The notes under the pieces: model-generated
The model's input: the letters and a program-made list of their open reading frames with translations, nothing else
Database searches by the model: none
What the model was told of the DNA's origin: nothing
In this document: positions 1 through 58,958 of the stretch, piece by piece
How positions within the stretch are numbered: position 1 is the stretch's first letter
Layout: every line of letters begins with the position of its first letter
Source: Siphonodentalium dalli
Lineage: Eukaryota; Mollusca; Scaphopoda; Gadilida; Siphonodentaliidae
Direction of reading: 5' to 3'
Assembly: GCA_032622095.1 (NCBI GenBank)
Contig: CP136062.1
Coordinates: 201,647,459 to 201,711,458 of the forward strand
Length of the DNA stretch: 64,000 nucleotides
Program-made: the position numbers and the translations under genes

Positions 1-186
1 AAAAAAATTCGGCCCAAAATTTTCTGGCCACTAACGAATTTGGGGTCATTTGTCACAATTTCCGATATTTTGCGAATAAGGAATAAGTGACGAAATTCAC
101 GTTGCTAAAACAGTACAGAAATATCGAGATGACGATCGTTCTATTTTTGCATTCCGGCATATCTGCCATCCCTAACATAACTTCGC

Positions 187-366
187 ATTCAGCAGGCTGT
201 CACATAATGGAGAACGGGTCATATTCAGCAGGCTGTCACATAATGGAGAACGGGTCACATTCAGCAGGCTGTCACATAATGGAGAACGGGTCACATTCAG
301 CAGGCTGTCACATAATGGAGAACGGGTCACATTCAGCAGGCTGTCACATAATGGAGAACGGGTTAT
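187..366. repeat. 36-bp tandem repeat, five units
   Basis: The unit begins ATTCAGCAGGCTGTCACATA and repeats five times. Copy 2 has one unit (45,850-45,885), so this is a local expansion in copy 1. Being 36 bp it keeps a plus-strand frame open, which is why a short ORF runs from 87 to 404. Confidence 0.95.
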
Positions 367-444
367 ATCTTATTCTACGAAGCAGAGAATATAGAAACCA
401 ATAAACAAAATTGAGTATAGTACCCCTTTAATCAACGTTGGATT

Positions 445-524
445 GTGACTGTACAGTCATGCAAGTTAGCGAGAATATTGAGAATGTGACTGTACAGTCA
501 TGCAAGTTAGCGAGAATATTGAGA
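445..524. repeat. 41-bp tandem duplication
   Basis: Two units starting GTGACTGTACAGTCATGCAA lie side by side; copy 2 has one unit near 45,966. The unit contains the palindrome TGACTGTACAGTCA. Confidence 0.9.
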
Positions 525-929
525 TTCAAATAGATTGAAATTAACAAACCTTAGAACAATAATTCGAACACATTTAATAATTCCTTTCTGAATGTCATGC
601 ACGATGTGCTTTTAATTGGTCTTAGTACACATGACCTTTTGATATCGCGTTCCCTCGTAACCTGAAATTCACCCGTATCCAACAGCTGACATTGCAATGA
701 TAAAAGCGATAAAAAGATACGTTTCATTAGCTATATGAGTATATATATTATATTACAAGTAGTGAATAAAGACTCAACACAAATATAACGGCAAAAGACA
801 GAATGCATGGTACGAATGCAGTGTAGAGAAAAATACGTATAAAAGATAAGTCGACAAGCTACTATACGGTGACAATTGTTACTTATCCCCAGTTCCTTAT
901 TCCTTATTCGGAAACATTCAAACTTGACC

Positions 930-1136
930 AAATAAACGGTGCGATATATAGGGTGTCCCACCCCAAGTTATGTTAAAAACCCGAAAACCGCACCATTCTA
1001 ACCCATGCGGTTGCCACAAGAGGGTCCAGCTCTGAGGTGGCAAAAAAGGGCACCTATTTCCGTTTCAGTATTTATGAACCGATTTTGCACAAATAAACGG
1101 TGCGGTAGTGTTGCCCACCACACATTATACTATAAC
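930..1136. repeat. Left-end remnant of the large inverted-repeat element
   Basis: Two related segments with GGTGCGATATATAGGGTGTC and GCACCTATTTCCGTTTCAGT match 47,690-47,885, the left end of the 8.6-kb inverted-repeat structure. The matching right end is absent here. Confidence 0.6.
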
Positions 1137-1189
1137 ACCAAAAAACCAGCTGTTGTACTCACACAAGGCAGGCCAAGGTCCACTATATG

Positions 1190-3344
1190 TTAACATGATA
1201 TTGCTGAGTCTGGCCACGAAATATTTTTAGTATATCATCAGTTATAGCTTGATATATAGGACGTTTACTGTAAGCACACATGTATCGCTAGTCCTATATA
1301 ATAACTGCGGAATGTCAGTAATGACTGTGCCAACCGAACTGCAAGAAAAATACCCGATTAGTCAGCTCAGATTTGCGAGGTTGGCGCGGTTTCGAACCCT
1401 GACATCCATGGCGATAATAGGGACTGATTTTCAACCTTGATCTGAGTTGAGTGACATTTCAATGTGCCATTCCGGTCGATACATGAATGGCCATTTCGAT
1501 ACAAGAAATGAAAAATATTTCACGCTCACTGAAGCACAGTTGAAGCTATTAACACATACTGAATCCGTGCCTCCATAGATCTGATATATATGACAAAGTC
1601 CATGGACGTTCAAAATCCGATGCATGCTGTATAATATCGACCCTTCCGTAAATATATATAGTTCTATACTTTGTTATACATGCATGTATATATAACGAAA
1701 GCGCGATACTGCAAATAACCTTCCTTTGCAAATAATAATCACCTTTAAAGAATGTCGATGTAGATTATACAATGCACATGTATAGAAGCGGTGGGCGCGT
1801 GCACGTCTCTCCCTGACAGTGGCTGGATCCGAAGTATATATTATATAAGACGACTACAGGGTCAATATTGATATTCGCTGTGCTAATACTCGTTACTAGT
1901 ATATAAGTAAAAGTAAACTAGAAATCACGCGCACATACCGATTGATCGAGTGGGCACGCAACAACGGAACAATGTCAGACCATGTGTCCGCTAACTATAA
2001 CACAGTCCAGTTAGGTCAAAATAAAATACATGCGTGTTCAGCTAGGGACGTAGCAACAATGTGTATTGGGCGGGGGTTTAACCCCCGTCTACCCCCCCCC
2101 CCAAATATGTCAATAGTTGTAAATTTCATGCCTGACAACACATTAAATGGAAATTTCAGACCAAATATAAGTTGAAATTGTTTTGATATATTGTTTTATT
2201 TTCCAAGGAGAATAGACAATTTTACGGATAGGGAGAATGATGCATCATAGGATGTATCGTATCCAAACATTAACACGTGTGTTGAAGCAGCATGCATGCA
2301 TGCATTATACTATGGGAGATTTAAAGTGGGTCGATAAAACTTATTATAACTTTGTTGTTTTTAACAGTTTTTGCGTGAAATGTTAGACATACATCAGGGA
2401 CATATACTCTTCTCATAATTTTTTTTTGTAACTATATATACTCATCGTGATTTTATTGATTTTATGCGACGAAAATCACAAAATAGCGCAGTTTTGTGAA
2501 TTTTTCGACTAACTATATTCAAATTTTGTGGTGTTAGAAAAATCCCCATAAAAATAGTTTTATTGTGAATTTTTACACCAATTTCTCAGATATTTTAGGG
2601 TACACACACCCTACCCTATCGGGCCATCCTAAATGATTTCCTTTTGTTTGGAATAATTAACTCTCAGACAACTATGTCGTCGCGTCCGACGAAAATGAAA
2701 CTTATCTGTTTGAACGTCCCCTTTTCGGAAATAAAATATATTCTCTTGAAGTAAAATCGTCAACAAACAGATAACTATATATATATATTTATTATTAGTT
2801 CCATTTTAAATAAAAGAATCAGCGGACCTCACGAAATCTTTTCAAATGGATGCATTTTACTTCTGGATTTTTGTACTGGACATCATGCACATGAGTATAA
2901 TATACCCTGGAAATACGTAAGCTTATATTTCCTGACATACTTCAATATCAGGATAGATCGAACCGATGCAAATAGAATTTTGTTTATCCAGAAAATGAAT
3001 AAACGTGCGTGTATGATTATCTGGATCGTCGTGTAGTACCAGAATATGTAATATAGGGAGCAGCATTTATGTGAAAATAAAATAAAATACTTCTATATAC
3101 TCACGTTCCTGGGTTTCGGCGGTCGCTATTGCAACCAGACACTATACACACTGATTGAAATAAGAATTTTCATTGTCTGATTATTATATATATTGGCATC
3201 TTTAAACCACGCAGTTAGACTCCTCATACCATGGAGATGCTTATGTATAAGTTTGGTGGATATCGGCGACTAAACACGTTCTTGTCAAATGTAGTGCCCC
3301 ATATATGATCCAGAGCTATTCTAATATACCGCGTCGTTAAACCA
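1190..3344. other. Anonymous duplicated sequence, no gene seen
   Basis: AT-rich sequence matching 56,417-60,990. It includes an AGGGACGTAGC-type MITE end with a poly-C tract near 2,045-2,105 and the empty TTAA site at 2,657-2,660. Short ORFs here show no recognisable domain. Confidence 0.6.
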
Positions 3345-3424
3345 CACAATTAGATTCCTCATGGAGAATATTCCGGGAGCTGATAATGTACACATATGCA
3401 CCACATGACTTAACTTCACCCCAT

Positions 3425-3887
3425 TCATTTTATTCATTTTTGTTTTGTTTAAACATATTTTATTTGTTCATAAATTAAATTACAAATGTAGTTTATGACA
3501 AAAGGGATTGGAGGACAAGTGCTAAATCACTTAGAATACCCTCCTCTCCCTAGTATAATACACTGACAAATTTTATGACACTAAAGACGAACAAAACACA
3601 AGGTATATTATATACATACATATAATGAACAATATAAGTAAATACACATAATGGCGATTGCGGAGGAGAATCGGAGGTTTGGTGTACAGTGGCGAGATGG
3701 GATGAGTGTGATTATGCTTCATCAACCCGTCGGTGATCATTCCCTTGCAACAAGTAAAAATACGATAGTGCAGGCATATATCAATTATTCAGTGCATAAC
3801 TGGGATATATTGTACATATGAAACAAGGTACAAACATAGAATATTATATTAAAAGTAGATTTGGTGTAGAATGGCATGGTCAAAGTG
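3425..3887 (-). other. LINE A 3' UTR with hairpin
   Basis: Non-coding tail following the stop at 3,888. It holds the GGAGG...CCTCC hairpin at 3,510-3,550 and ends in A-rich sequence with AATAAAATATG on the minus strand. The exact 3' end is not defined. Confidence 0.6.
3510..3550 (-). other. Conserved LINE 3' UTR hairpin, copy A
   Basis: On the minus strand GGAGG and AAGTG pair with CACTT and CCTCC around a short loop. The same structure recurs at 11,389-11,431 (minus) and 41,399-41,438 (plus). Confidence 0.7.
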
Positions 3888-5147
3888 TTAGGTTCTCTCA
3901 AAACGGCCGGAATCTCTAATATACGGGTGTACAACCTTAAAGATATCACTATTCTCAGTATAAGTGAGTTCGGGTTTCCCATAAAGAAGTATGTCTACAG
4001 AGTTAATATTATGATGCATAAGATTATTATTGAGTTTTTGCCGAGATTCGGCATAATGGTTACATTCAAAGAAAAAATTATTAGCATTTTCATCCCGGAA
4101 GCCACACGAGCATGTTGCGGAATCTGAGATATGATTTCGTAATTTATCGGATTGTAGGGCACTACATTTACATCGAAGTTGCGTATGAATAATATTATAA
4201 TAACGACTCCCATTTGTGAAATACAAAGGTGGCTTCAGCCTTGTCCCCGCGTAGTTCATATGTTTCAATTGCTTCACGAATTCATCATGGGCAAGATTGC
4301 GAATAGGTAATTTAATGGAGTTCCATTCCTTTGAACAGGCAGGGATAAAAGTGGATTTTAGCCTTGCAGAGTCACAGCGAATGATAATGAAATCAGAAGC
4401 ATATTTTGATTCTCGATCGGTCCTGTCTCTGAAACGTTCGGGCAGGATTGTGCTTAAATAACGAGGTGCATTATTATTTATTATCTTGTGAAGGGTGAAT
4501 AACCGTTTAACGGTTCTTCTGTCCTCTAGACTATCCCAGCCTACCTCGGTCATTAATCTGACATCTGATACAGAACGAGTGCAACCCGTCACGATTCTGG
4601 CTGCATCTAACTGAATATCATTAAGGTTTTTAAGGAGGTAATTCGGAGCTCCAAACCACACTGGACTTGCATATTCGAGAAGCGGTCTCACGTATGTCAA
4701 GTATATATACATTGTTTCTAAAGTCTTTCTGCTTATTATGCATTTAAGTTTCCTTATTTTGGACAATCTCGCATTAGCACGTTTACACGTGTTGTCAATA
4801 CACATATTCCATTTGAGATCACTCTGCAGGTCAATGCCTAAATGCTTGTGATTTTCGGTGTATTCCAGGACTTCGCCGTTGAATTTAACCACGGGTCTAT
4901 TATTTTCAGGGAAACTTCCAAAAAACATTAGATTGGTTTTTGATGGATTGAATTTCACCATCCATTGCCTCGACCAATTGCTCAGCTTAATCATATCATT
5001 ATTCAGTGAAATTTCAAGTGTGTTTAGGTCAGAACTATTCTTAATTAGACAAGTGTCATCTGCGTAGAGACACGTTTTGGATTCCATACTATCGGCTATA
5101 TCGTTAATGTAGAGCACAAATAGGAGAGGGTCGATAACGGACCCCAT
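3888..5147 (-). pseudogene. LINE A: C-terminal half of reverse transcriptase (YADD)
   Basis: An uninterrupted 419-codon frame. It begins in motif B (GSVIDPLLFVLYINDI) and has the catalytic YADD at residues 28-31 (5,055-5,066). The palm/thumb follows (WMVKFNPSKTNLMFFG, HKHLGIDLQSDLKWN, YVRPLLEYASPVWFG). The C-terminal domain reads CKCSALQSDKL...CSCGF...FFFECNHY, the cysteine-histidine pattern found at the end of many CR1/Jockey-type ORF2 proteins. The rest of the enzyme is broken upstream. Confidence 0.92.
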
Positions 5148-6373
5148 GGGGCACTCCAGAATCTACATGTAAACAATCATAATTTGAGACGCAGGCGTTG
5201 ATCCTAACCCTTTGTTGGCGATCGCTAAGATAACTCTTAAACCATAAAAGAAGTTTTCATTTAATCCCATATTTTTCCATATTGTGTAAAAGTCCGTCAT
5301 GCCAAACTTTATCGAACGCTTTGGACACGTCACAGAAAACCGCACAAGTGTTACATCCTTCATCTAGTGCTTCTGCTATACTATGAACTATTTCAATAAG
5401 CTGATATTCGGTACTATGTTTAGGAAGGAACCCAGACTGATAATCATACAACAAGTTATTTTCTTGTAAATGCTGAAGTAATTTATTATAGATAATTTTT
5501 TCTAATATTTTACCGAGAACGCTCAGAAGTGAAACTGGCCTATAATTATTTGGATCTTTTTGGTCAGCTTTTTTGAATAGAGGTATAACATCCGCTTTTT
5601 TCCATTCATCTGGGAACTGACAAAGGTCTATCGATTTCTGAAATTATATACTAAGTGGTTTGCATACAGTAGCATGTGTTTCTTTAAGCATGCTATTACT
5701 GATATCATCTGACCCATAGGCTTTTTTCGTTGGTAGATCTTTCAAATTTTGAGAAATTTGTGATTCACTGATCGGTATTTCAGTGATAACTTCGTCTGTT
5801 CGTGCAACAAAATTCGGCAGACATTTCGCTTTCATTCCTAATGAACTATTTGCAACAAAAATACTATTTAAAATTTCAACTTTGTCTTTATCATCGCAGA
5901 ACATTTTGTGTTTATATGAGAGAGACGGGATTCCTTGGTTAGAATTGTTACCCATAAATGTTTTAACAACATGCCAAAACTGTTTTGGGTTATTATTCAT
6001 AACAAGAGATTCATCCAAGTGAGTCATATACTCATTTTTTGCGTGTTTCTTTGCATTATTTACTTGATTTCGAGCTTTCAGGTATTTCGACCACGTGAAA
6101 CTCGTATTACATTTTAGAGCTTTTCTTCTATAGCGATCGCGTTGACGGATTAGTCTTCTGACTGCATGTGCTATCACACCATGGTTTATCATTTCTACGT
6201 ACCAGTATATCTCGGCGTGGTATGAAAGATTCGGCCATCTCCAGAAACATGTATCTGAAATGCTCAACAGATTTGTTGATGTTAAAACGGTTTACTTCAT
6301 TATTAAGACAAGCGGACCAGTTAGCTTCTTTTATTACTCTATTTAAACCTATAAAGTCGGCAGAAGAATAGTT
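5148..6373 (-). pseudogene. LINE A: linker and N-terminal half of reverse transcriptase
   Basis: After a TGA at 6374 the frame continues YSSADFIGLNRVIKEANWSA. A frameshift near 6,175 leads to AVRRLIRQRDRYRRK and the linker. RT begins KKAYGSDDISNSML, then a TAA (5644) interrupts before FQKSIDLCQFPDEWKKADVI. Next come NNYRPVSLLSVLGKILEKII, SGFLPKHSTEYQL, and motif A in AVFCDVSKAFDKVWHDGLL. A TGA at 5257 follows GIK, after which LLLWFKSYLSDRQQRV and GVPHG (motif B) are still readable. A one-base frameshift then joins to the next open frame. Confidence 0.88.
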
Positions 6374-7087
6374 TCACACTATTCTTTTGTAGGATTGTGT
6401 CACCCGGGGTGTCGTTTTTAGTTCAACAGACGTGGCATAGTGATCAGAAACTTCAAGGTCAACAGCGGAGGGGTTCATCGCTGTTAACGCTCCAATTTTG
6501 TCATCAAGTAGTTCCCAGAAGTTATTTAAACATTCCCTATCGGACCTATAGGTAACACATAGTAAAAACTTGTCTACAGATCCAACTTCAAACCAAAGGA
6601 TGTCATCATTAAACTGCAAACCTGACATTTCTCTCTATGGAATTTTATCTGAAAAGTATACCATGATTCCACCGCCATACATATTTCGATCTTTACGTAC
6701 TGGGTGTTGGAAACCTGAGATAAGTAAGTTTTCATTTGGATAATTATCGTCAAGATGAGATTCAGTAAAGCATAGAATATCGTAATCATCGATAATATCT
6801 GAAATCTTTTGAATTTTGTTTCTTATGCTTCTTACGTTGCAATGAATAATAGAAATTGAAGTGGTAACCGGGGCGTCTAACTGACCTGGGTTCGGGTGTA
6901 TGTCCCCAGCGAGAGCAAGAAGAGTGGACGCTAGAAATGCTACTATCACATTATGAAAAGCTAGTAAACGCAAACGAATTGGCTTATGTGTAGTATGTTT
7001 ATACATGTTACATCGGCATGTTATGTGTAGATATATGCCTTGAAATATTCCAATTGTTAGCCTATATTGAGCCACACTAACTCCCAT
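6374..7087 (-). pseudogene. LINE A: N-terminus, 2A-like motif and broken endonuclease
   Basis: From Met at 7,087, a hydrophobic segment (about residues 39-60, LLAFHNVIVAFLASTLLALA) leads into GDIHPNPGQ. Next come endonuclease blocks: SIIHCNVRSIRNK (residues 79-91) and ILCFTESHLDDNYP, with the expected catalytic Glu in TES. After a TAG at 6635 the same frame continues through LWFEVGS and LLCVTYRSDR. It then jumps from DDKIGALTAMNPSA straight to VDLEVSDHYATSV. The intervening GDFN-type block and more are missing, while the final SDH motif is kept. The 5' boundary is uncertain. Confidence 0.85.
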
Positions 7088-7090
7088 GAC

Positions 7091-7746
7091 TAGTTGTACA
7101 GAACGTCAGTAAGGCGCATGATAGGCTAACAGTAAAACATAGATGACGTTGGCTGCTCAAGAACTTTGGCCGACGGATGGTGAAGCATATATGTTTATAT
7201 GATTATTTCAGATAAGAGGTGTGAGATATAAACATGAAGAGGTGAAGAAATAACATTAATTGTGTAATGTTAACCATTTTACAATGGAAATTACATAATT
7301 CTGCATAAATAAATAACTTTTATTTAGGATCATGCAATACGTATATAAATGTGCGAGACAACTGCACCCAAGAGCTTCGGCCTGTTAGTTACATGTACGC
7401 GTTATGCATCGAGCTATGCTCAATCTCCTGAATATTGCGGAATTATTAGCGGATTAACAGTTGACCAATACATCGCAGGCGTCGATCGCGACATGAACCG
7501 TGCGGGCACAGCGAAGGTCTCAGCATCATGAGCATTGTCTCGTGTATTGCTTGAATAATTCCGTCTGTTGTGTTCGGAATAGAATCGCGTTGACTGTGGA
7601 CTAATCTGCTCTTATTGGTTGTTCTGGTCAGTGGGTCAACTGACGGGTTATAATACTTCGGGAAGGGTAAACGATGAAAAGTATACGCTCGTGGAAAGCA
7701 AGATAGACGCGTTCGCTAAAATAGGTCAGGTTCATTCGCGCGCATA
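7091..7746. other. Gene-free interval between LINE A and the Helitron array
   Basis: No coding signal or repeat structure was recognised. The short open frame near 7,349-7,531 has no recognisable feature. Confidence 0.5.
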
Positions 7747-8230
7747 TCTCATATATATTTTGAAGACATCTGTTTGTCTGTCTGTGTGCTTGTCTGTATG
7801 TCTGTATGTCATTGATACAAATCTACGATTCTCGACCGATCTGGACGAAACTTGGAACGTGTATGTGGTTTGACCAGGCGGTCGTCAACGTCGTATTGGC
7901 GAGCCCGTGCGGCGCCCGCTTCGCACATGCGCAGACGAGATATCTGAAACGGGTGGAGCTATCGACTTGAAATTTGCTATGTGAATGTATCTTGCCCCGG
8001 ATACGAATTTTATCGGGTCGCCGAGCCCGTGCGACGCCAGCTTCGCGCATGCGCAGACCAGATCTCGGAAACTGGTGGAGCTATCGACTTGAAATTTGGT
8101 ATGTGAATGTATCTTGCCCCGGATACGAATTTTATCTGGTCGCCGAGCCCGTGCGACCAGCTTCGCGCATGCGCAGACCAGATCTCGGAAACGGGTAGAG
8201 CTATCGACTTGAAATTTGGTTTCTGAATAG

Positions 8231-8258
8231 CCCGGACAACGTCGGGCTCATCGGCTAG
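8231..8258 (+). other. Helitron-like 3' terminus, unit 1
   Basis: Hairpin CCCGGACAACGTCGGG at 8,231-8,246, then CTCATCGG and CTAG. The next unit's TC follows directly. Confidence 0.75.
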
Positions 8259-9100
8259 TCTATTATATATTTTTTGGAAGATCTGTGTGTGTGTGTGTGT
8301 GTCTGTCTGTGTGATCGCGATGAACTCGAAAACGGCTGAGCCGATTTCGATGAAACTTGGTATGTGTGGGTATTTTCGGCCGGAAACTGGCATAGGCCTA
8401 TTAATTTGCCCGTGCGACGTGACCTTGACCTTGAAATCGGGTAATTTCAAGGTCAAACGCCAGAATATCACGGGATTTCGATGAAACTTGGTATGTGGGG
8501 TTACCTTCGGCCGGGGAGTGGCATAAACCTATTAATTTGCCCGTGTGACGTGACCTTGTCCTTGAAATCGCGTCATTTCAAGGTCAAACGCCCGAATATC
8601 ACGGGATTTCGATGAAACTTGGTATGTGGGGGTACTTTCGTATGGGGAGTCCCATACGCCTATTCATTTGCCCGTGTGACGTGACCTTGACCCTGAAATC
8701 GGGTCAATTCAATGTCAAATCGCGAATTTTGATTGGATTTCGACGAAATTTGATGCGTAGGGTTACTTTTGTCCACTGAGTGTATTTGACGGGTCGAGTC
8801 GCGACCCCGACCTGACCTTGACCTTCAAAATGATCAATTCGAGGTCAAATCGGGTAAAACCGGATGGATTTCTACGGGTACTTTTGTCCAGGCAGTGTTT
8901 TGGACAGGTCAAATCGTGACCCCACCTGACCTTGACCTTCAAAATTGACAATTCAAGGTCAAATCGCGCAATTCCTCCGAAAAGCAGAGGGGAAACAGCC
9001 CGCAATTCAAGGTCAAATCGCGCAATTCGCAGAAAAGCAGAGGGGAATGGACAATTCAAGGTCAAATCGCGCAATTCGCCGAAAAGCAGAGGGGAAACAG

Positions 9101-9128
9101 CCCGGACGAAGTCGGGTCCACCTTCTAG
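9101..9128 (+). other. Helitron-like 3' terminus, unit 2
   Basis: Hairpin CCCGGACGAAGTCGGG at 9,101-9,116, then a short spacer and CTAG, followed directly by TCTAATATATATTTT. Confidence 0.75.
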
Positions 9129-9396
9129 TCTAATATATATTTTGGGACTTCTGTCTGTTTGTCTGTCTGTCTGTCTGTTTATTAGCAATGGCCGGGAAAA
9201 ATGCCCGACGGATTTCGACGAAAATTTTATACCTAGGGATGCTTTTGTCCGGGGAGTGTTTTGGACGGGTCAAATCGTGACCCCGACCTGACCTTGACCT
9301 TCAAAATGGTCAAATCGGGTCCAATTTCGCATGCGACCATGTCCTTGCTCATATACGCTCATATAGTCATGTTTCTGGCAAAGAAATCCCTAAATG

Positions 9397-9424
9397 CCCG
9401 GACGAAGTCGGGCCCACCAGCTAG
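9397..9424 (+). other. Helitron-like 3' terminus, unit 3
   Basis: Hairpin CCCGGACGAAGTCGGG at 9,397-9,412, then CTAG at 9,421-9,424 and the next unit's TCTCATATATA. Confidence 0.75.
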
Positions 9425-9906
9425 TCTCATATATATTTTTGAAGACCTCTGTCTGTCTGTCTGTCTGTATGTTTGTTTGTCTGTCATTTATACAAATCTA
9501 CGATTCTCGACCGATCGGGACGAAACTTGGTACGTGTGTGTAGTTCGACCAGGCGGTCGACCTTGTCGTATTGGCGAGCCCGTGCGGCGCCCGCTTCGCG
9601 CATGCGCATACGAAATCTCGGAAACGGGTGGAGCTATCGACTTGAAATTTGGTATGTGAATGTATCTTGCTCCGGATACGAATTTTATCGGGTCGCCGAG
9701 CCCGTGCGACACCAGCTTCGCGCATGCGCAGACGAGATCTCGGAAACGGTGGAGCTATCGACTTGAAATTTGGTATGTGAATGTATCTTGCCCTGGATAC
9801 GAATTTTAACGGGTCGCCGAGTCCGTGCGACGCCAGCTTCGCGCATGCACAGACCAGATCTCGGAAACGGGTGTAGCTATCGACTTGAAATTTGGGTTTT
9901 GAATAG

Positions 9907-9934
9907 CCCGGACAACGTCGGGCTCATCGGCTAG
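9907..9934 (+). other. Helitron-like 3' terminus, unit 4 (array end)
   Basis: Hairpin CCCGGACAACGTCGGG at 9,907-9,922 and CTAG at 9,931-9,934, followed by T and unrelated sequence. Confidence 0.75.
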
Positions 9935-10151
9935 TTTGTATATAAAATGGTGTATGTATATCCAACCATCAGCTATTGTGAGGTAGCGTTATGTTCAACG
10001 TGGTGCCCTACACTATGCTATGAATTTGGACAGTCACTTTAAGCTAGTGTTTCGTGTCTATTTTTATTCGCCGACTACTCGTCAGGGACAGGCGATTTAA
10101 TTAGATAAGTCGACAATTTATATGTCTGTTAACATGTATTACATGTGTATA

Positions 10152-10395
10152 TAGTTTGTGCCACGTTGTGTGGAATCGTTGGATTTGCAAAGTTCATGCA
10201 ATCAACCTGTATCTCCGGAATGCATAGGATTCAATATTAGTTTTTGCCACGTTTGTGGTATCGTTGGATTTGCAAATTTCATGCAATCATTCTGTATATC
10301 AGGAATTCATAGGATTCCATATTCGTCTTTGCCACGTTTGTGGTCAATTGGATTTGCAAATTTCATGCAATCATTCTATGTATCCGGAATGCGCG
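10152..10395. repeat. About 86-bp tandem repeat, three units
   Basis: GTTGGATTTGCAAATTTCAT and its flanks recur at about 86-bp spacing, beginning near 10,157, 10,244 and 10,329. The open frame across it is a by-product. Confidence 0.8.
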
Positions 10396-11335
10396 TCCAC
10401 CGCCAATTTCGACTCGACTGAAGATGTGCAGACTCTGTGATCGCTATAAGATAGAAATCTGTTCAGTCCAGTTTAAACTGGTTTGTCTGCCAGGTTCGCC
10501 CATTGTATATCAGTTGTGATAAGCAGCATATATATATCCAACCAGAACTTACGTGTCTAAATGTACATGCACAAAATTGAGAATTGGAAGACTGGATTAA
10601 TAATGTGCATTCTCGGTGAGTTTTAATCAAAAGTTTCGACGTTATTCGCCGTTGTTTACATTACTTTATAAAGCTTCAAACAGGTATCAGTATTTAGCAC
10701 TGCTAAGGACAAATAGAAATCGGTATAAAGATGTATTACTGATTGATGTTTAACATTTCCAGAGAGAAATTGAATTTTATTCCTTAAAGATGAATTATCC
10801 GAACTTTGAAGAAATTTTGTTGTTGTATCTTGATGAAATGGGGACCGTCTGATCAGATTGAGAACCTTTACAGAATATATATGGTGAAAATCGGCGACAA
10901 AAAATGTCAATGATTTTGTTTCCTCTTCCCATTATTCTGTTATACTCCTTTGGAGTCACACAGATCATGCCCCTCGTTAATTTATATAGCAAGACTGACA
11001 GACATTCCCAAATTTGAATATAGATGCATTTCATTTAACTGGATACATCATACTAATTTTCTGAATTCACGGGGTTATCATTCCAGTTAGCAAAAATAAC
11101 AAGGTATTTTTCAAAATAAAATGAAAAATGAAAAACCACATGCCCCAATTTATTTGGATCCGTTACCAGAAACGCATATTCAATGTATTTGTGACTGAGT
11201 AACAGTGTAACGGAACCAAAAACAGATACAACTTCCTATATGAACAAGTGCTAATAAAGTTATAAACACGATTTTCTAGCGTTTTGTACACAACGAATCA
11301 ATAGGTTAGTTTCAACATCTATTTAGTTGTCTGAT
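10396..11335. other. Gene-free interval with a MITE fragment
   Basis: No gene seen. Around 10,775-10,872 there is a degraded piece of the TTAA-flanked MITE family (AAAGATGAATTATCCGAAC at one side, GATTGAGAACCTTTA at the other). Confidence 0.5.
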
Positions 11336-34300: not shown

Positions 34301-37300
34301 CTGAACGCATACCCTATAGTTGGGTTCATAATCTAGATAATGCAGTGGGTATTTTTTTTATAGATATTTATCTGTATATTAGTATATCTACCTACACGAA
34401 TTTTTTTTTACATAATTCAAACATATCTCTCATATTGTGAGAGTAAACACATGTTGTTATAATACTATAGCATTACATTGTTTATAAATTATAATTATTT
34501 TTGCCTCCAAATTGATTGTTTGAAATTGAGATATTTTTAAATATGGGCGTCGTTGTATTTTAGTAACAAATGTTGTACATTCTTCCAAAATCCAACTTTC
34601 CAATCATAATCATACACATGGGAAGAAAAATTCTCTAGCGTTGAAAATTAGAAATAAAGAGAGAACATTAAATAGTTTGTGATTTAATTATCATTATTTT
34701 TGTTTTTATTAAATATTTATAGAAGATCTCTTCAACTATATTCCGACGATCTTTTTAGTATCCTTAGTGCTTTCAAATGAAAATAAAATCCTGGTTTAGG
34801 TGGTCATATAATCAAACTTCTTAATTGGTGAGTTATCTTTATTTTGATGAAACCCACACCCAAACCAATTGACATTATATTTATAGTGCACACTCACTTG
34901 CAATTTTGGTTGAATTTTCTCGTCTGTTCTCTCGTTAATTCATGACAACTAAAAATGCAGTCATTCAAAGTCGAGTCCTGGAAGTACAAGGAGCGAGGTC
35001 AGTCGTATGTCCACACTACCCAAACGATTCATGGCCTCTCGGGACAAGTGGGAGCCTCTCTGTGATCTACATATATTCCTTTCAATGCAATTTGGCTTTT
35101 TTTCTGGACGAAATATATAATGGACCTTGCTTTTGTTTTTTGTAATAAGATTTTCAATGAATTGCAGATGGAATTTCTCGGATTTATAATTTGTGTTTAG
35201 TTCTGGAGGATGTAGTTGGAAATGGTACGTCGCGGACATGCACCCCAAATTAACGTAGACACTGTATTGTAACGTCCCTGCGAATACCCTTACACTTAAC
35301 AAAATATGCATGGCAAAAATAATAGCCCTGCTGAAACGAATTCGGACAAACAAACAACGCCTGCTTTAAAATGTGGCGTGTATATACATATGCTGATTTC
35401 GTTACGGTTCAGTTGTGATGTTTTCCTCCGTGATTTCCTGTTAATTGGAACCTTAACACACGAGCAGATATAGCTATATAATAGAACACCGAACTTCCTG
35501 GAAGATGAAATAGTTGCATAAATACCACATCCGAATGCTGAGTTCCACAGTATTATTATAGTTGTTTTCAAAAATGGCAGTCTCATGCCCGGTACATTTC
35601 CCCCGTTTTACTTGTTTAGTTTTACAATATCTGGAGGAGCTGGAGTACTGAATTGGTCTCATTGGAATACCAGGCATGAAAATGAGGGGCTGGAGTACTG
35701 AATTGGTCTCATTAGAATACCAGGCATGAAAATGAGGGGCTGGAGTACTGAATTGGTCTCATTAGAATACCAGGCATGAAAATGAGGGGCTGGAGTACTG
35801 AATTGGTCTCATTAGAATACCAGGCATGAAAATGAGATGCTGGAGTACTGAATTGGTCTCATTAGAATACCAGGCATGAAAATGAGGGGCTGGAGTACTG
35901 AATTGGTCTCATTAGAATACCAGGCATGAAAATGAGGGGCTGGAGTACTGAATTGGTCTCATTAGAATACCAGGCATGAAAATGAGGGGCTGGAGTACTG
36001 AATTGGTCTCATTAGAATACCAGGCATGAAAATGAGATGCTGGAGTACTGAATTGGTCTCATTAGAATACCAGGCATGAAAATGAGATGCTGGAGTACTG
36101 AATTGGTCTCATTAGAATACCAGGCATGAAAATGAGGGGCCGGAGTACTGAATTGGTCTCATTAGAATATCAGACATGAAAATGACAAAATTTATCTTCA
36201 GTTATATAGCTTAATATGTCGACCCAACTTACAATAGGTTCATCACAAAAAACATATCCATGCAGAACGTAACATCCAGATTCCCCGGATTTGTCCGACA
36301 ATGCCAACGCCGAATAGTGTGCGAACGAATCATCTCTCCAGCGACTGAAATGAACACGAAACATGAATGTATTATACAGGGTCATCTTTCCTGCATGAGT
36401 ATATATGTGTAGGTACGGTGTGAATTTCGTCTTCTTTCCCCCGCTTTTAATATAATGGTTCTTGGATGTACTACATATAGACTCTGGAAGTTCCGAATAA
36501 TCGTTTATGTATAGTGTGCTACATAGTGATTCTACGGTAAATGATCAAAATGATAGGGTATGCGCGAAATTGAAATTTGAATCCATTGTAAGATATGGAT
36601 GAATGGCATGTGATTAAGTTGTACATAAATATCGCGAAACTAATGCAAGCGAAAATCAATTTCAACTGTTTGTATGTAGGATTTATATACACGTACAAGT
36701 TGTGTAACGACAAACCCATTGTGGTTAATTTTGGCACTCTTTTGTTGAATAGACTATATATATTGTTGTGGGAGCTAGTTATTAATGGGATGAGTTTCCA
36801 CTATTTCCGAATAAAAGAGGTCACTCTCGTCCAAACCGTGTGATGGGTATATACCCATGGAGGTCTAAAACATGTGGTTGCGTGTATATACACGCGGTAT
36901 AAAACTGTCATCTACTGGTAATTTAGTGTTTTATTGTCTAAACCACAAAACTCACACAAGTTGAATATTCAACTGACTGCAATCATTGTCTGATTGATGA
37001 AATATTCCATGCAGCATGCGTCTAGCCAGCACATTTCCCACACACTGACCTGTATCAACTGTAACGTTCACTGGAGGAAGTTGTCGGGAGCAGTGCACCT
37101 TGTACATGTAGCGCCGAACGCGGGGTAAGCGGTTAATTGGTTTCTGGCTTATTCATGTGCTTTACATCGACGTTCCACCTAATTAAGTGGAGGTCCAAAC
37201 TAATTACAGCACAGACTTCTATCTGAGTGGGAGATCCAGCCTTGTGTATGCAATTATTTAACTAATCTCCACTCTGGCTTACGCCCGTAGAGATCATATT

Positions 37301-40300
37301 TTCCAATTCAAACCTTGAAAACCTGTTGGTGTTCTGGCTGGAAACTTTATAACATTGAACAAACAACGCAGTGAATATATTATATATATCTTTATTGTCC
37401 TCCATAATTGAAGAGTTTAACAAATGGTAAATACATAGTACAGTATCAAAGGTAGCCAAACATTTTGGTCAACATGACATTTAACAAATGATAGTATGTA
37501 CACAGAATGACACAAGTGCCACCAAGACATGGTATACAAGTTGGGTCAAACTAGAGAGTAACCTTACCCACAGGCAGATATACATTCAGACATACAATCG
37601 GACATACCGACACTCGGACATAATATGCAGGCATGCAGACAAACACAGCCACGCAAACATAACTTTCAGTCTAAACATATTTACATTATGCAGATAAAAT
37701 CCGAAAGGTACACAGGATAAATGCTTAGACTTGCATTTTCTAATTTACTGGCGGCAAACAGTTATACTTGGAATGTTATTTAAACGTTAGTATTGTGTCG
37801 ATAACTGCTCATATACAATTGATGTATGGCAAAGCTTAATTACAAGGAGTATAAAGGTGCACACATGAGCGAATGTACGTCGTATATTGTTACATTCACA
37901 CCGGTAACATCATATCCGCATGGGTGAGTGCAGTCTGCTTAAAACCATACCCAAACTCCAACGATCGTTGGAGTCTGAGTATGGTTCCAATCAGACTGGC
38001 TCCTGATATGCCATTGTGGATTTTCGTTAAAACGTTTGGTGATTACTCAGAATGAAGACTTGACAGCATCCTGTGTGATAACCATAATATGTGGGTATGG
38101 TGAACTATAAATGATACGAACAACATAGGGTCATCAATGAAAGAAAATATTTCAGAGGGAAGTTTTGTTAGGTGAATCATAACAAGTTCATCATCGTCAA
38201 GCTCGTCCACCCAAAGATAGAACAGCAATCCAAATGTGTCAATCAATTGGTACCACATGTCATTACGACGAGAGCACAATATATGGTGAGTGCAATAAAT
38301 CATAACGTGTATTACCACGTCGTCATATTCCAAGTGACATAACGCACAAGTACCCTGGTGTTTGGTAGCAGTGGTCGCAATAAGTTGGGCAACGGTCAAA
38401 AATTCTCTCTTCCGCTCTGGATATTGCCGACAGCAACGCCAAAGTATGGACATCTGTAAGTGACTTTGGATTTGATAGAAGCATGCTAGTGTTGGGTCGT
38501 TTTGAACATTTTGCGTCCAGTCGATATATGCGCTTACTGTTGACTTCCGTTTTGATCAGTCGGTTCCACTCCGGGCGGATTGGACACGTACCGACTATTG
38601 CGAATTGCTGAAGATATTGGTTCAAGTTATGAGAAATAAGAATGCGTTCAATGTCAGCAAAGTATGACTGAGGATTAGTATATTGCAGAGAAAGGTGCAT
38701 GTGAAGTCTTGATACAAAAATTTCCTTGCATACCTTGGAAGGCGATATTCGACAAAGGCTACCAAACAAACTGAGTTTTCGTGCATCTATAAAAGATGAA
38801 ATAGGACCAAGGCCCATGAGACCTAGAGCAATATCGGTTCTCGCCCTTACAGGCAGCCCTTGAATGCGTTTCAAGCAAAATCGATGGATTTTCTCGAGCG
38901 AGGTAGTGTCCGACACAGACATGCCACACAGAAATTCTGAACCATATAATCCTTTTGGCAGCACCATCGTTTTGTATATGATGGCAAAACTCGACGGAGT
39001 GATCCCTCCGGCATAAAGTCCAGCATTACTTAAGAGGCAAAAAGTTGACCTGATTTTGTCTACAATGACTTCAACAAATTCTTTGACAAAGCTGTACTTG
39101 TTTACTTGTATGCCCAAATGAGTGATTTCGTCTGTTTCGGACACGGTACTTCCAGCGACAGTCCATCGTCTACTTGTGCTGCAGCTTTGGCGAGACGTTA
39201 CATTTGTTAGGATTATACATGAAGCGCCACTTTTGACTATACGATGTGCATATATCGCATAAACGTTGTAAGCCGTAACTTCAGCTTGTGTTGGAGACGA
39301 GCAGTTGGAGGATAAAAGTCGAAATCCAAAGTTTGAAGCTTCAAGTTCATACAAGAGATCATCTATGTACATCATATAGAACAAAGGGGATAAAATACCC
39401 CCTTGCCTTGCTCCTTGTTTTATTTAAATTGACTTAGACAGAATGTGTGTATGTTTGACTACACACGAAATATTACTCAGAAACTCTCTTAGGAGGAGCC
39501 AAATTTTGCCTTGGAATCCACGAAGGTGTAACTTCAACAATAAGCCATTGATCCATACTGTGTCAAATGCCTTATGTACATCCAAGTAGCATGCGAATAG
39601 TTTAGACTGTTGTTCTTTTGTGAAGTTCACGCGTTCGTGCAATACATATGACGACATTAGACAACTGACATTTTTCTGAAAACCGTTTTGAAGGGGATGA
39701 ACTTTAATTAGATTTGGCGTGTTGCGTTCCATGCGAAACAACATTATTTTTTCTAGTGTCTTATACAGCACTGGTAGAAGAGTAATTGCCCTGTAGCTAT
39801 CGAATTTAGTTTTTGGCTTATCACCACCCTTATACAGAGAAACTACCAGGCCAGATTTTGCCATAGCAGGTAAATGTTGTAACTCTAACATTTTGCTCAT
39901 GACGAACGCTAACCGTTCTTGTAACGACTCGCCTCCATACACAATGTGCTCGTAACAGATCATGTCCGGACCAGGAGCTTTCCCCATATTCATTGACTTG
40001 AGAATTTCATTCAGCTCCTGAATAGAAATAGGATATAGCATATGTTTATCTAGTGGGGTAGAGACACCATGTGTGTGTATGCTAGATCTGCGATGTCTTC
40101 AACTGAACTATTGACATAATCATAATGATGATGATCGAATGCGTCCGACTCAAGTTGGCAATACAATCGTTCATAATAATCAGCCCACGCAGTTGTGATT
40201 TCTTCAGGATTACGGAGCGTAACATTGTCAACCTCGAAAAAGTTATTATTAGTTGCCCTAGTTCTAGATTTGTTTTGATTAAATAACCGAAAAAAGTGCT

Positions 40301-43300
40301 CTTGGTTGATTTCCGCAGCATTGTCAACATGGTCGTTTTGGCTCGATAAGAATTTCAAGTTGCTATGTCGTAGTTCCCTGCGGAACGCACACTTCGCTGC
40401 TTTATACATGTAGTATGAAAGATGAGCCCAACCTCTTGGGCGACCTTCACTGTTCCATATACGTTTGAAGTTACGCATTTGACTATGAAGTTCCTTCAGT
40501 TTTTCATTCCAGTATGGTTTAATGTGGGATTTGTACGATGAAATTCAATCCATGATTGCATGTATGAGACGCAAAGCAAAATCGGCTCAACAATATCACC
40601 TAAATCATGCAATCTCGAGCTGTGACCTTCCCCGACTGTGAAATACAGATAAGGAACGGGTATTATCATATATTACTTGCATCGTTTTTGTGTACCGTGA
40701 GTCGTTATTTGGTGGGAGAATCTGGATTCAGAATCCCAAACCGATTACGGGGCGGGGCTAAATCGAGATTATACACGGATTCTATGTCTAATTTTGAAAT
40801 ATCCGAATATGTTTAATGTTCTCCCAGCGTCAAACATGGCTCATGTATTTTATATAAGTATCATATGTATCTTATATTTATAAAGTTCATGTTTGTTGTG
40901 AAAGTCATGGTTTGCTTCTATGTGTATATATACATGGCACCCAATTAACTGCCAATCCGACTTAATCGCATCTTTTTTCAAGTTAAGGTGTGTTTTTTAT
41001 TGTTGAGTGCAAGCATTTCTAACAGCTCTAGGTCTCCTGAATCAAATTCTGAAGACGTTGTGGAGAACACACGAAACTTGTCAGTTGTACAGGGACGTGG
41101 TGACAGGGGTTGTTTGGGTGTCTCGAACCCCCCCCCCCGAACTTTAGTACAATTTTCTTAGCTGTACAGTCATTCATACGTGAGGCAAATCAGGATTCTT
41201 TTGACTAACTGTTCCAAATAATGATACGTACAAGCCAGCAAACGCAACAAACAAACCCGATTTTAAATAAATACATATACAAACTTATGACTAACTCGGG
41301 GAGGGCTGACCGGTGATATGTATATATGTTCAACTTGTTTTGGTAGTCATGTTGCTTTGCCATTACTAATTATTTATTTTTAAGTGTAATAACCAATTAG
41401 AGAGGGGGTACCCTTAAGTGAATCAGCACTTGTCCTCCAACCCCATTGTCTGTATAAAGAAATGTATGTGTTATATGTCATGTGTTATCTAAATTTGACA
41501 AATATTTTGAAATAAACTTTGGTACATTTCCAGCAGTTGGAAATTTCATGCATGACACAACATTAGTTGGACATTAATTTGACACCATATATAGGTTGGA
41601 ATTGTTCTCATTGTTTGAATGTTTTCAACCAGTAAAAGTTGGTAATTTTCCAATCTTAGGGTGTGCCAGGTTGGATATTTCCAAGGGGGTGCAAATGGAA
41701 TTATGCGAACCTGTGAGATTGATGTTTGGTTCAGGGGGGGGGGGGGGGGGGGGGTGCAGTTGACCGGAAATTTGAGGAAACCTCTAGTCACGTCCCTAGA
41801 ATTTGTACGTGTGGGTACTTCATCAATAAATTGACTGACATTTCCACTATATAGTCCCGAGATCCTAGAATAAGCTTTACATTTGTGTTTGTGCGATTGT
41901 GAGATGCGGTTCACGTGCGAGCACAAGACCACAACATTAGTTTCATGGGCGAAGCATTATTTTCCAACTAAAGTACAGCACGTTGGCAAAAAAATGCCTG
42001 TGTTTCTGCACTATACAGAGATTATTGTCCAAAACGACTGCATTTAATGAAACAAAACATTTAAATATGAAATTGCAATAAGACTATAGATAGTACATAC
42101 GTGTATCTGATAATCCATCGATATCATATAATCCTACTATTCTTGAATAAGAAGGAACATATAATAACGAACAAAGCAGAAGACATATCCATGCAGGTTC
42201 ACGTGAATTCGGTCAATGGTGACGTATCCGCCGAATTTGAAATCGACATGCGTTCGGGCGGTATTTCATGGATGGAATTATGAAAATAACATTATGAAAG
42301 TGACAATGAAATTGACAATGATTTGCTTCAAGTTCGCCATCAACCGAAGTGCTCCCCCAGCGTTACTATCAATAACATAATTATTTGGCTAATTTCAGTA
42401 ATATTATCCCAGTTTACACTCGATAACACAAATTTTTCTCCGCATTTAAAATTCTTTGATATATATCGTCGGAATCAGAATCTGAATCTGGATTACGACG
42501 AAATAACGATTGATTACGATTACGGTCTGTTCGTTTACGGATTCTGGTCTGTTCGTTACCGAACCACGTCGTACCGGGTCTAATCCGTAATCTGAATCCA
42601 GATTATACCACCAAATAACGAATCAGGTCCCATTCCACGTATGGTACGGTAAGACTACTTCGCAGAACTTGTGACCTTGACCGTAAACAGTTCAGTTGGT
42701 GTGGAGCTCCCTCCTGTGGGTGAGGAGCACCCCAATATGTTGGATTACATTAAAAAACTAATTAATGAATAGATGAGTCAAGTTAAAAGTAAAAAATATG
42801 AATATTTAATAATCTTGATAGTATTGGATAAAAGTAGTTCCAGGCACAACATGTATTTACTGTGTACGGTCAAGGTCACAAGTTCTGCGAAGTGTCTTTA
42901 CCGTATGGTACACATAATGCCGACGTCCGAATCAACCATCCGTCGTTTGTCCCACCGTATGTCCGTCCGTCCGTCGGGACGTCCGTCCGTAGACACTTGC
43001 TATTCGTCGCGATAACTTTAGTATTTTTTTTATCGGATCGTGTTCAAATTCCATGTGCATGTTTATGATGACACACCACTCAATTGGTATCGATCGGTTG
43101 ATCGGTTTAGAAATGATTAACACTTTCCATCCATACATGGTCATGTTCTATCCGATACCATAACTCAAGTATTTGTTGTCAGATTGTGTTCATATTTTAT
43201 ATGCAGGTTTATAATGACACATGAGGCGACAAGCCTCACCTGTGTATTTTTTTAGTGTCGATTGGTTGATCAGTTTAGAAATAATTAACCCTTCTACACA

Positions 43301-44739: not shown

Positions 44740-45740
44740 TCGAAAACTGTTTGGGTCGAGTTCGTAAAAGTGGTCCGAAAAAGTATCCAACCTGTGCTCG
44801 GTCCGATTTTTTTGGGAAAATGTGGCAAATGACAACGGGAACATACTCAGTAAAAAAATTAAAAACATTTGGGCCGAAAGAAATTTGGGTCGAAAAGTCC
44901 GAAATTAATTAATTAATTAATTTTCCTCAAAAATCGGACCAAGCACAGGTTGGACTGGACTAGACACTGGCTCTATGACGCTCCGACGCTCTGCTCTGTT
45001 CGCCGTCATAACGGCGTGCATAGTGTAACGACGTAGCCTCATAGAGCCAGCGCCTAGTCCAAGGTTGGACACTTTTTCGGACCATTTTACGAACTCGACC
45101 CAAAACATTTTCGGCCCAAAATGTTCCGCCCAGCTGGCCACTTGAGAATTTGGACTCATTTGGGGCCATTTTCCCTTCATTTTTGTTTACTTTTCGAGGA
45201 AGTTCGGACTTTTCGACCCAAATTTATTTTGGCCCAATTTTTTGTTATTTTTAATTGAGTATGTTCCCATGGTCATTTGCCACATTTTCCCAAAACAATC
45301 GGACCGAGCACAGGTTGGACACTTTTTCTGCCACTTGAGAATTTGGACTCATTGGGGCAATTTTCCCTTTATTTTGTTTTTACTTTTCGAGGCATTTCTG
45401 ACTTTTCGACCCAAATTTATTTCGGCCCAAATTTTTTATATTTTTTACTGAGTAGTTGTCATTTTCCCCAAAAAAATCGGACCGAGCACAGGTTGGACAC
45501 TTTTACGAACTGCACCCAAAAACATTCGGCCCAAAATTTCTCGCTAGCTGGCCACTTGCGAATTTTTGGTCATTTGCCACATTTTCCCAAAAAAATTGGA
45601 CCGAGCACAGGTTCGACACTTTTTCGGACCATTTTTACGAACTCGACCCAAAACATTTTCGGACCAAAATGTTCCGCCCACCTGGTCACTTACGAATTTG
45701 GGGTCATTTGCCACAATTTCCAATATTTTGCGAATAAGGA
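44740..45740. repeat. Repeats around GGACCGAGCACAGGTTGGAC
   Basis: Direct copies of GACCGAGCACAGGTTGGACA and nearby CGACCCAAAACATTTTCGG blocks occur at about 45,301, 45,479 and 45,599. An inverted copy lies at 44,747-44,925. Window positions 1-60 begin inside the same repeat. Confidence 0.75.
44956..45061. mobile_element. 106-bp MITE with 9-bp target duplication
   Basis: Exact AGGTTGGAC at 44,947-44,955 and 45,062-45,070. Ends are TGGACTAGACACTGGCTCTA and TAGAGCCAGCGCCTAGTCCA. A 9-bp duplication suggests the Mutator superfamily, though a hAT-type 8-bp reading cannot be excluded. Confidence 0.78.
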
Positions 45741-46530
45741 ATAAGGAATGTGACGAAATTCACGTTGCTAAAACAGTACAGAAATATCGAGATGACGATC
45801 GTTCTATTTTTGCATTCCGGCATATCTGCCATCCCTAACATAACTTCGCATTCAGCAGACTGTCACATAATGGAGAACGGGTCATATTTTATTCTACGCG
45901 AAGCAGAGAATATAGAAACCAAGAACAAAATTTGAGTATAGTACCCCTTTAATGAACGTTGGAAAGTGACTGTACAGTCATGCAAGTTAGCGAGAATATT
46001 GAGATTCAAATAGATTGAAATTAACAAACCTTAGAACAATAATTCGAACAAACTTAATAATTCCTTTCTGAATGTCATGCACGATGTGCTTTTAATTGGT
46101 CTCAGTACACATGACCGTTTGAGATCGCGTTCCCTTGTAACCTGAAATTCACCCGTATCCAACAGATGACACTGCAATGATAAAAGCGATAAATAGATGC
46201 ATTTCATTCGCTATATGAGTACACAGCGACATGACATATTTCTCGCTTATGACAAAATTGTATGGTGATGCCTCTATATATGCGCATAATATATAGGGGC
46301 GCAGTTGCGGATCACTTCATACAGCCAGGGACGTGGTGACATGGAGTATGTCAACTCAAATTTGGTCAAAATGTACAAAAGTTAGTAGTTTCATGCCAGA
46401 ACAGGGGGTGGTATAAAAACATGCAGGAGGATAATATTATGCTGTTTTTTTTTTGGCATCTGACATTTTCGGGGCCCCACCACCCCAAAACCTGCAAAAA
46501 CAATATATATTTTTACTCCCAATTGTTTAA

Positions 46531-47010
46531 AGGTACTCAATCCGAACAGAGGGTCCCCATCTCAACAGATTCCAACAACAACAATCCGATCAGAGAGTCC
46601 TATATTACTATTTCTTTGGCTTTGGGGGTACAAAATATTTGATTCGAGTCGAGGAACCCATCAAACAAAGCTCAGAGTTATTAGATATTGATTTTTGAAA
46701 TTTGTTATTTACTCGAGATGAGTACTAATAATTGCCTTCAACTGCCGTAATCTGCTCTGGGTGTGTACTCCAAAATCTATTCAAACAGACAAGGATGGAT
46801 AACTCTAAAATCAAGTGGTAATAACAGCGCAATTTTGACTGAGTTCTGGGCCAGATAATATTCCCGATAATGAAAAATAATAGATTTATAAAATCGTTAT
46901 CTAACAAATCTGAGCTTTGATGGGTGACTTCCTCGACTCGAATCACATATTTTTGACTCCCGAAGCCATTGAAATAGTAATTGAGAGGAGTTTTATCGGA
47001 TTGAGTACCT
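46531..47010. mobile_element. TTAA-flanked MITE, AGGTACTCAATCC family
   Basis: TTAA at 46,527-46,530 and 47,011-47,014. Ends AGGTACTCAATCCGAACAG and CGGATTGAGTACCT. Subterminal arms with GATTCGAGTCGAGGAA are inverted. It is the reverse-orientation sister of 58,271-58,739. Confidence 0.88.
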
Positions 47011-48013
47011 TTAAGACCCACCCCCAAATTTGACTGGTATTGGTCTGAAACTGCATACAACCCAATACATTTTTCGCCCATTACACTCTGTGACACTGGG
47101 AAATTACTCATTTAGTCCAAATGACAGTTTAACCAGTTTTGTTATGTTTCAGCTATGTTTTAATTGAAAAGTGAAATTTTGCAAACTGGCTCATACGTAT
47201 TTGGCTACCAAATACATGCATTCGAGATTCCAGGTCGATGGGTGATGAGATTATGCTATAGGTCAACATGGGTGGTCAAATTCCATACTGCTAAATGGAA
47301 ATTCTAATGCATCGACGTATAGTGGACAAATACAGTAACCCATCATAATCTGATAGCTGCATGCGCATACCAGCACTAATGTACACGGAAATAATTCGAT
47401 ACGTCCTACGATTTTAAATTAAACTGATAATGTGACGTACAAACTCAAAAAGCGCGAAATACGCATAATATATATATACGAAAACAAGTGCATGGTGATT
47501 TTTCAGTTTTATTATATTACAAGTAGTGAATAAAGACTCAACACAGATATAACGGCAAAAGACAGAATGCATGGTACGAATGCAGTGTATAAAAGATAAG
47601 TCGACCAGCTACTATACGGTGACAATTGTTACTTATCCCCAGTTCCTTATTCCTTATTCGGAAACATTCAAACTTGACCAAATAAACGGTGCGATATATA
47701 GGGTGTCCCACCCCAAGTTATGTTAAAAAAACGAAAACCGCACCATTCTAACCCGTGCGGTTGCCACAAGGGGGTCCAGCTCTGGTGTGGCAAAAAAGGG
47801 CACCCATTTCCGTTTCAGTATTTATGAACCGATTTTGAACAAACGGTGCGGTAGTGTGGCCCACTACAAATTATACTATAATACCAAAAAAAACAGCACC
47901 CCTCTAGCCCGTTCGGTTACCACAACATGTATGTGGTGGGAAAAGGGCACCCATTGCGTTTCGGTATTTCTGGGCCGATTTTGACCAAAATAAACGGTGC
48001 GATATGGTGGCCT

Positions 48014-50035: not shown

Positions 50036-50051
50036 CTATATAGGCCCATCA

Positions 50052-50400: not shown

Positions 50401-50427
50401 TTCAACTTTCGAGTCTGTATGGGCTAC

Positions 50428-52193: not shown

Positions 52194-52197
52194 TTAA

Positions 52198-58739: not shown

Positions 58740-58958
58740 TTAACTCTCATACAACGGTGAATGATGATAATAAATTAACCCTTCGCATCTATGTCGTCGC
58801 GTCCGACGAAAATGAAACTTATCTGTTTGAACGTCCCCTTTTCGGAAATAAAATATATTCCCTTGAAGGAAAATCGTTAACAAACAGATTTCTATATATA
58901 TTTATTAGTTCCATTTTAGATAAAAGAATCAAAGGACCTCATGAAATCTGTTTAAATG

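Follow-up and report, generated by a model that had tools for sequence, protein, structure and literature searches.

Can two collinear copies of one segment be read as natural filled and empty sites, so that each block present in only one of them is dated relative to the duplication? The question is raised by the window, i.e., the whole 64-kb stretch of DNA that was analysed (C2:201647459-201711458 in a 2.23-Gb genome of 9 contigs), in which the first-pass annotation had described two such copies, here called copy 1 and copy 2. The window was studied together with 140 kb upstream and 80 kb downstream of it (284 kb), and negative coordinates denote bases upstream of the window start. The polarity of the gaps cannot come from two copies, and copy 1 serves badly as an empty site. 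It is probable that copy 1 arose as the hybrid junction when a tandem array with a ~46-kb unit was last duplicated, that it was later eroded, and that copy 2 gained insertions.

Alignment of copies 1 and 2

The gapped alignment confirmed that the copies are collinear and lie in the same orientation, with copy 2 longer by ~12 kb; they align in eight plus-strand blocks (1-3,345 against 45,682-61,001; Table 1). The E-values of the collinear pieces of at least 100 bases range from 2e-12 (1149-1299) down to 0, which is beyond chance. The counts of tandem-repeat units reported earlier were likewise reproduced, being 4.9 (186-363) in copy 1 versus 1 in copy 2 for the 36-bp unit, 2.0 versus 1 for the 41-bp unit and ~1 versus 91.9 for the 33-bp unit.

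Table 1. Coordinates of the copies, aligned blocks and other features. The entries 0=1, 1=2 and 0=2 give the numbers of sites uniting the respective copies.
Feature	Position	Strand	Remarks
Copy 0	-57,377 to -38,581		third copy, ~57 kb upstream
Copy 1	1..3345	+	left of ~970 closest to copy 2, right of ~970 to copy 0
Copy 2	45682..61001	+	gapped alignment
Aligned block	24-741 / 45682-46221	+	substitution identity 96.4%
Aligned block	746-1145 / 47510-47891	+	substitution identity 96.3%
Aligned block	1149-1299 / 56376-56529	+	substitution identity 86.2%
Aligned block	1250-1842 / 56971-57561	+	substitution identity 90.6%
Aligned block	1936-2660 / 57554-58270	+	substitution identity 91.7%
Aligned block	2652-2852 / 58769-58962	+	substitution identity 91.7%
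Aligned block	2844-3185 / 59821-60131	+	substitution identity 91.0%
Aligned block	3186-3345 / 60827-61001	+	substitution identity 88.0%
Switch in closest relative	957..1035		best estimate 964-981
Sites	756-1144		0=1: 7, 1=2: 11, 0=2: 7
Sites	1150-1285		0=1: 34, 1=2: 3, 0=2: 2
Sites	1287-1845		0=1: 41, 1=2: 6, 0=2: 12
Sites	2020-2665		0=1: 34, 1=2: 22, 0=2: 10; modest 0-1 signal
Sites	2672-2846		0=1: 10, 1=2: 4, 0=2: 1
Sites	2852-3160		0=1: 12, 1=2: 13, 0=2: 20; 0-1 sister signal absent
36-bp unit x5, copy 1	186..363	+	within ~183-bp dispersed element carrying one unit elsewhere
41-bp unit x2, copy 1	444..524	+	one in copy 2; copy 0 without the region
Deletion junction in copy 1 opposite 46222-47509	741..746		4 filler bases
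Dispersed element with ~143-bp repeats, left end	861..1145	+	rest deleted in copy 1
Deletion junction in copy 1	1145..1149		1-2 bp microhomology, by eye
33-bp array remnant, copy 1	3302..3345	+	right border common to copy-0 array
7.3-kb block with reverse-transcriptase frame	3439..10772	-	imperfect direct repeat of ~13 bp; absent downstream of copy 0
4,138-bp block with reverse-transcriptase frame	36454..40591		AATAT repeats at bounds; absent from other unit
Short TTAA-flanked element, 480 bp, copy 2	46531..47010		copy 0 empty there, with one TTAA
8.0-kb element with inverted ends of ~570 bp	48013..56018		between the arms in copy 2; absent there in copy 0
Palindromic GTGACCCGC-type element, copy 2	56530..56993		absent from copies 0 and 1; flank duplication ~37 bp
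Short TTAA-flanked element, copy 2	58268..58743		single TTAA in copies 0 and 1
858-bp inverted-repeat element, copy 2	58963..59820		absent from copies 0 and 1; 8-bp duplication
704-bp block, copy 2	60132..60835		copy 0 deleted there
33-bp array, copy 2	60968..64000	+	at least 91-92 units, runs into N at 64001

The tandem array and its copies

The window is enclosed by a tandem array with a unit of ~46 kb. The collinear copies described in the first-pass annotation are confirmed, but their number is not two: three of them lie in the array, and the middle one, copy 1, appears to be a hybrid. Its homology continues upstream past base 1, beyond the window. The DNA between copies 0 and 1 and the DNA between copies 1 and 2 are collinear with each other over 54 chained pieces, with 94.0% substitution identity at 19,792 aligned sites. 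The copies thus share orientation and neighbours, as in a tandem segmental duplication, and this layout is observed directly. Older, more broken units occupy the stretches near -127 to -112 kb and -75 to -58 kb, with 88-96% identity to the two 46-kb units in seven chosen segments.

The only run of N in the 284 kb (64001-66500, 2,500 bases) begins directly past the window end. Beyond it, the stretch 66501-66659 matches the continuation of the unit (84%), and ~2.3 kb beyond the run 68799-68954 resembles the sequence at which the 33-bp array begins on its left (identity 74% with copy 2; 81% with copy 1 for 68797-68909). These matches suggest that a further, badly broken copy possibly lies downstream. 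The remaining matches there are mostly pieces of dispersed elements, one of them 790 bp long at 96%.

Genome searches were performed with two parts of the segment. The search with 1286-3200 (40 of 4,276 candidates scored) gave 45 matches, seven of them at copies 0, 1 and 2; the 38 others all fall within query positions 923-1445, an old dispersed repeat (~2208-2730), so that among these candidates 1286-2207 and 2731-3200 match the three copies only. With 45740-46490 (40 of 1,284 candidates scored), 43 matches were obtained, four at copies 1 and 2 and 39 elsewhere that cover only a ~183-bp element (~45770-45955). As far as the scored candidates show, the segment is present in three copies. That the collinear copies are simply two inserts of one dispersed repeat is highly improbable: the two pieces just named are indeed dispersed (38 and 39 other matches), but outside them the scored candidates lie at this locus only, and the homology spans tens of kb with the same neighbours.

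Mosaic structure of copy 1

The distance between copies 1 and 2 rises from 2.8% (21/752) to 9.0% (190/2121) at a change-point located at 979/980 (2-log interval 949-1119), and none of 1000 permutations gave a step as large. A second step inside the left or the right part was not supported (57/500 and 490/500 permutations as large, respectively). As the divergence takes two values, it gives no single date.

Among the 197 informative sites joining copy 1 to copy 0 or copy 2 (the 52 sites joining copies 0 and 2 were excluded from the switch count), all seven up to position 964 group it with copy 2, and beyond 964 it is grouped with copy 0 by 138 of 190 and with copy 2 by 52. Only 4 of 2000 permutations gave a switch as good. 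The number of sites on the left is this small because copy 0 is without a counterpart of copy 1's 1-741. Copy 2 aligns badly in 1150-1285 (~70%); when this block is left out, the switch stays at 964-981 (7/7 versus 104/153, 6/2000 permutations), and it also stays there when 2852-3160 is removed as well (6/2000 permutations).

The relationships of longer differences were also analysed. Right of 1150, 16 of the 23 indels of at least 3 bp join copies 0 and 1, four join copies 1 and 2 and three join copies 0 and 2; without four rows at cut edges (n = 19), the numbers are 13, 3 and 3. Left of the copies, in seven chosen segments spread over ~14 kb (2,729 sites), 151 sites unite the two 46-kb units, versus 55 and 54 uniting either of them with an older unit; one of the seven older-unit segments has a near-zero signal (19 versus 16 and 13). 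The junction copy combines parts of both outer copies, changing from one to the other at a single point, and these mosaic relationships are read directly from the alignment. The informative sites are mixed in 964-1144. The signal uniting copies 0 and 1 is modest in 2020-2665 and disappears in 2852-3160, which points to further exchange or uneven change. Contrary to the mosaic pattern, a 14-bp stretch at 823 is common to copies 0 and 1, explicable as a loss in copy 2.

Unequal crossing-over, also termed non-allelic homologous recombination, can be expected to leave a hybrid copy at the junction of a tandem duplication. The locus resembles such duplications in its tandem copies, hybrid junction copy, doubled intervening DNA and exchange point within a repeat; it differs in that no gene was found in the unit, retroelement parts aside, and in that the hybrid copy is eroded by deletions and so mimics an empty site. 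The sites, the indels, the sisterhood of the left segments and the doubled DNA are all accounted for by a single ectopic exchange in which copies 0 and 2 were the partners. An older pair, copies 0 and 2, would have existed together with degraded units upstream. The exchange would have taken place at ~970, inside an arm of a repeat-armed element, copy 2 supplying the left part of copy 1 and copy 0 the right part, and would have doubled the DNA lying between them. Later, copy 1 would have lost the rest of the repeat-armed element and a second stretch of ~0.8-1.3 kb, both by end-joining deletion, as well as nearly all of the 33-bp array, and would have gained four 36-bp units, with at least five transposon-like insertions entering copy 2. 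This neutral account, in which tandem duplication by exchange is followed by insertions, end-joining deletions and array turnover, is the most likely one. Nothing about this kind of event is out of the ordinary, but at this locus its traces are exceptionally clear. Our literature search found no paper joining tandem segmental duplication, unequal crossing-over, a transposable element and a chimeric copy, and none on related empty sites together with segmental duplication and a transposable element.

A serious rival, though on balance an unlikely one, is false haplotypic duplication, in which the assembly has set two alleles, the 46-kb units, one after the other, with copy 1 as an artificial join between copy 2 of one haplotype and copy 0 of the other. 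Contigs of two haplotypes joined by mistake would show exactly this mosaic, and a difference of ~6% with many insertions is thinkable between alleles of a very heterozygous species. False duplications placed beside the original are described in excerpts of PMC9516828, and the adjacent near-copies on one sequence are similar to them; however, a primary sign named there is a gap separating the members of a pair duplicated on the same scaffold, and here no gap lies between the pair, the sole N run of the 284 kb being downstream of copy 2. Moreover, the switch (~970, interval to 1035) differs from the structural junction at 1145/1149, and the older units (88-96%, seven segments) imply that the array existed before this pair.

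Gene conversion after a plain tandem duplication into three copies, in which copy 1 was overwritten on the left by copy 2 or on the right by copy 0, seems quite unlikely to us. A conversion tract also yields a mosaic, and patchy exchange is suggested by the mixed sites within 964-1144 and by the lack of signal in 2852-3160, but left of the switch the sister relation is seen in segments spread over ~14 kb and the 46-kb units on both sides form one pair. Conversion would require very long tracts, where one exchange suffices.

Insertions and deletions

As copy 1 appears to be a hybrid, it is not readable simply as an empty site; the presence or absence of blocks in copy 0 was observed directly. 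The filled/empty interpretation stands for 56530-56993, 58268-58743 and 58963-59820, which we take to be insertions into copy 2, empty in copies 0 and 1. For 46222-47509 and 47892-56375 it fails, since copy 1 lost flanking DNA and the better empty sites are found in copy 0. The locus is thus a worked case of a paralogous pair that cannot be read as filled and empty.

Opposite the copy-1 junction 741/746, copy 0 keeps ~540 bp of 46222-47509, together with the single-TTAA site, which argues for a gain of the 480-bp element by copy 2 and for a deletion of the DNA around this site from copy 1. The block 47892-56375 involves the repeat-armed element, whose start at ~861 is indicated by the flanks of four other genomic places, all diverging left of that point. 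This family occurs at dozens of places in the genome, some copies having inverted arms. Both arms are retained in copies 0 and 2, the switch in copy 1 falls inside the left arm, and in copy 0 the two arms adjoin at -56,868/-56,865. As they adjoin there without the 8.0-kb element, 48013-56018 appears to be an insertion into copy 2, in which no target duplication could be made out, and copy 1 appears to have lost the remainder of the arms. Through the third copy, two apparent insertions, 46222-47509 and 47892-56375, have become what we read as composites of an insertion into copy 2 and a deletion in copy 1. None of the 11 reading frames tried in the 8.0-kb element has a Pfam match above the cut-off. 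It is very doubtful that the repeat-armed family is a recurrent exchange point through ectopic pairing of its arms, with hybrid-junction tandem duplications enriched at its copies genome-wide. The right arm in copy 0 carries a private insert of ~14.8 kb (-56671 to -41900).

At 56485-57020, a direct repeat of ~37 bp lies on both sides of the GTGACCCGC-type element, and copies 0 and 1 hold it once. We considered whether this is a target duplication of unusual length, but another member of the family (-68849) seemingly has only a short one, so that a small prior tandem duplication is equally likely. Near the same site, copy 0 has its own 457-bp insert with a 7-bp duplication. The 8-bp duplication of the 858-bp element corresponds to AAATGGAT in copies 0 and 1, with one mismatch per flank. 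The stretch 1837-1935 of copy 1 is partly common to copy 0 and absent from copy 2.

The short TTAA-flanked elements have TTAA on both sides at the four copies compared, and a single TTAA at the empty site for three of the four. Their ends are of the 5'-RR and YY-3' type, unlike piggyBac (AGGTACTCAATCCG...). According to excerpts of PMC9587614, Kolobok elements have TTAA and 5'-RR/YY-3' ends; 46531-47010 and 58268-58743, with TTAA duplication and 5'-AG...CT-3' ends, resemble them, although no transposase was seen in these short, non-autonomous elements and their assignment is by ends only. The four elements are mutually 94.8-98.9% identical, compared with 94.0% for the unit, which suggests that they moved roughly when the unit was doubled, or later. 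Should reads confirm it, the locus would place a number of small transposon families in time against a duplication and would show an exchange point inside a transposon arm.

Tandem-repeat units

The opposite local expansions claimed for the two copies were upheld in one part only. One aligned relative of the 183-bp element has a single 36-bp unit, and the alignment spans of the 38 other matches fit one unit; an expansion in copy 1 follows from these relatives. The 33-bp contrast of 1 versus 92, on the other hand, mainly reflects a loss in copy 1, as the array is also present in copy 0 (23 units, against 91 used for copy 2). The two arrays share four variable positions and four of the seven unit types of copy 0, and the right border of the copy-0 array (ACAATTAGATTCC...) is the sequence following the single 33-bp unit of copy 1. 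Shared variants, unit types and border indicate that the array is probably ancestral, predating copy 1, and contracted there. Thus, with the third copy, an apparent satellite expansion becomes a likely contraction. Independent growth of the arrays followed by exchange is possible and requires more steps.

Coding content

The Pfam analysis of 26 frames revealed reverse transcriptase in two and an endonuclease below threshold in a third, all within two retroelement-like blocks. No gene besides retroelement parts was found in these frames, a scan that multi-exon genes with short exons could escape; the other Pfam hits were below the cut-off, and the Rfam and tRNA scans of the 64-kb window gave no result. 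An 825-aa frame of the 33-bp array matched PCC_BT with 33.9 bits over the whole frame (cut-off 23.5), and no single stretch of it passes. We take this as a repeat artefact, because the array has one stop-free frame per strand and a third with one stop. The stop-to-stop frames conserved between the two 46-kb units gave no clear coding signature, their changes being mostly non-synonymous; a few short frames are exceptions, among them 44464-44661 (four synonymous to one) and 40981-41157 (five to three).

Differences between the 46-kb units

A total of 53 gaps separate the two units, of which 27 are one-sided (at most 20 bp on one side versus at least 50 bp on the other). After the row of the 36-bp unit was left out, 26 of the 27 were compared with the older units, which polarised 12 of them, as five insertions and seven deletions; 14 are unpolarised. 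The rows at -21929 (insertion), -32311 and 35174 (deletions) are weak, with a match below 77% on an edge or spanning match. Among the unpolarised ones are -708, whose edges match different places, and 36454, with one edge matched. At the deletion 29451-29505, a 10-bp direct repeat marks the two ends and would look like a target duplication if only two copies were compared.

Two of the blocks carry reverse-transcriptase frames (Table 1). The block 3439-10772 also has an endonuclease match below threshold. The left part of 36454-40591 is common to an older unit, so that this insertion-like block may instead be a deletion in the other unit.

Several repeats were also noted within the unit. Two minisatellites, at 31685-33260 (36-bp unit x43) and 35634-36185 (50-bp unit x11), have counterparts at the corresponding position upstream of copy 1, the 50-bp one in an older unit as well. 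A degenerate tandem array at 44741-45721 adjoins copy 2 on the left, two of its blocks being absent left of copy 1. The stretch 42902-44334 belongs to a dispersed repeat family present, in long matches of 75-83% identity, at 38 other places among the 40 candidates scored.
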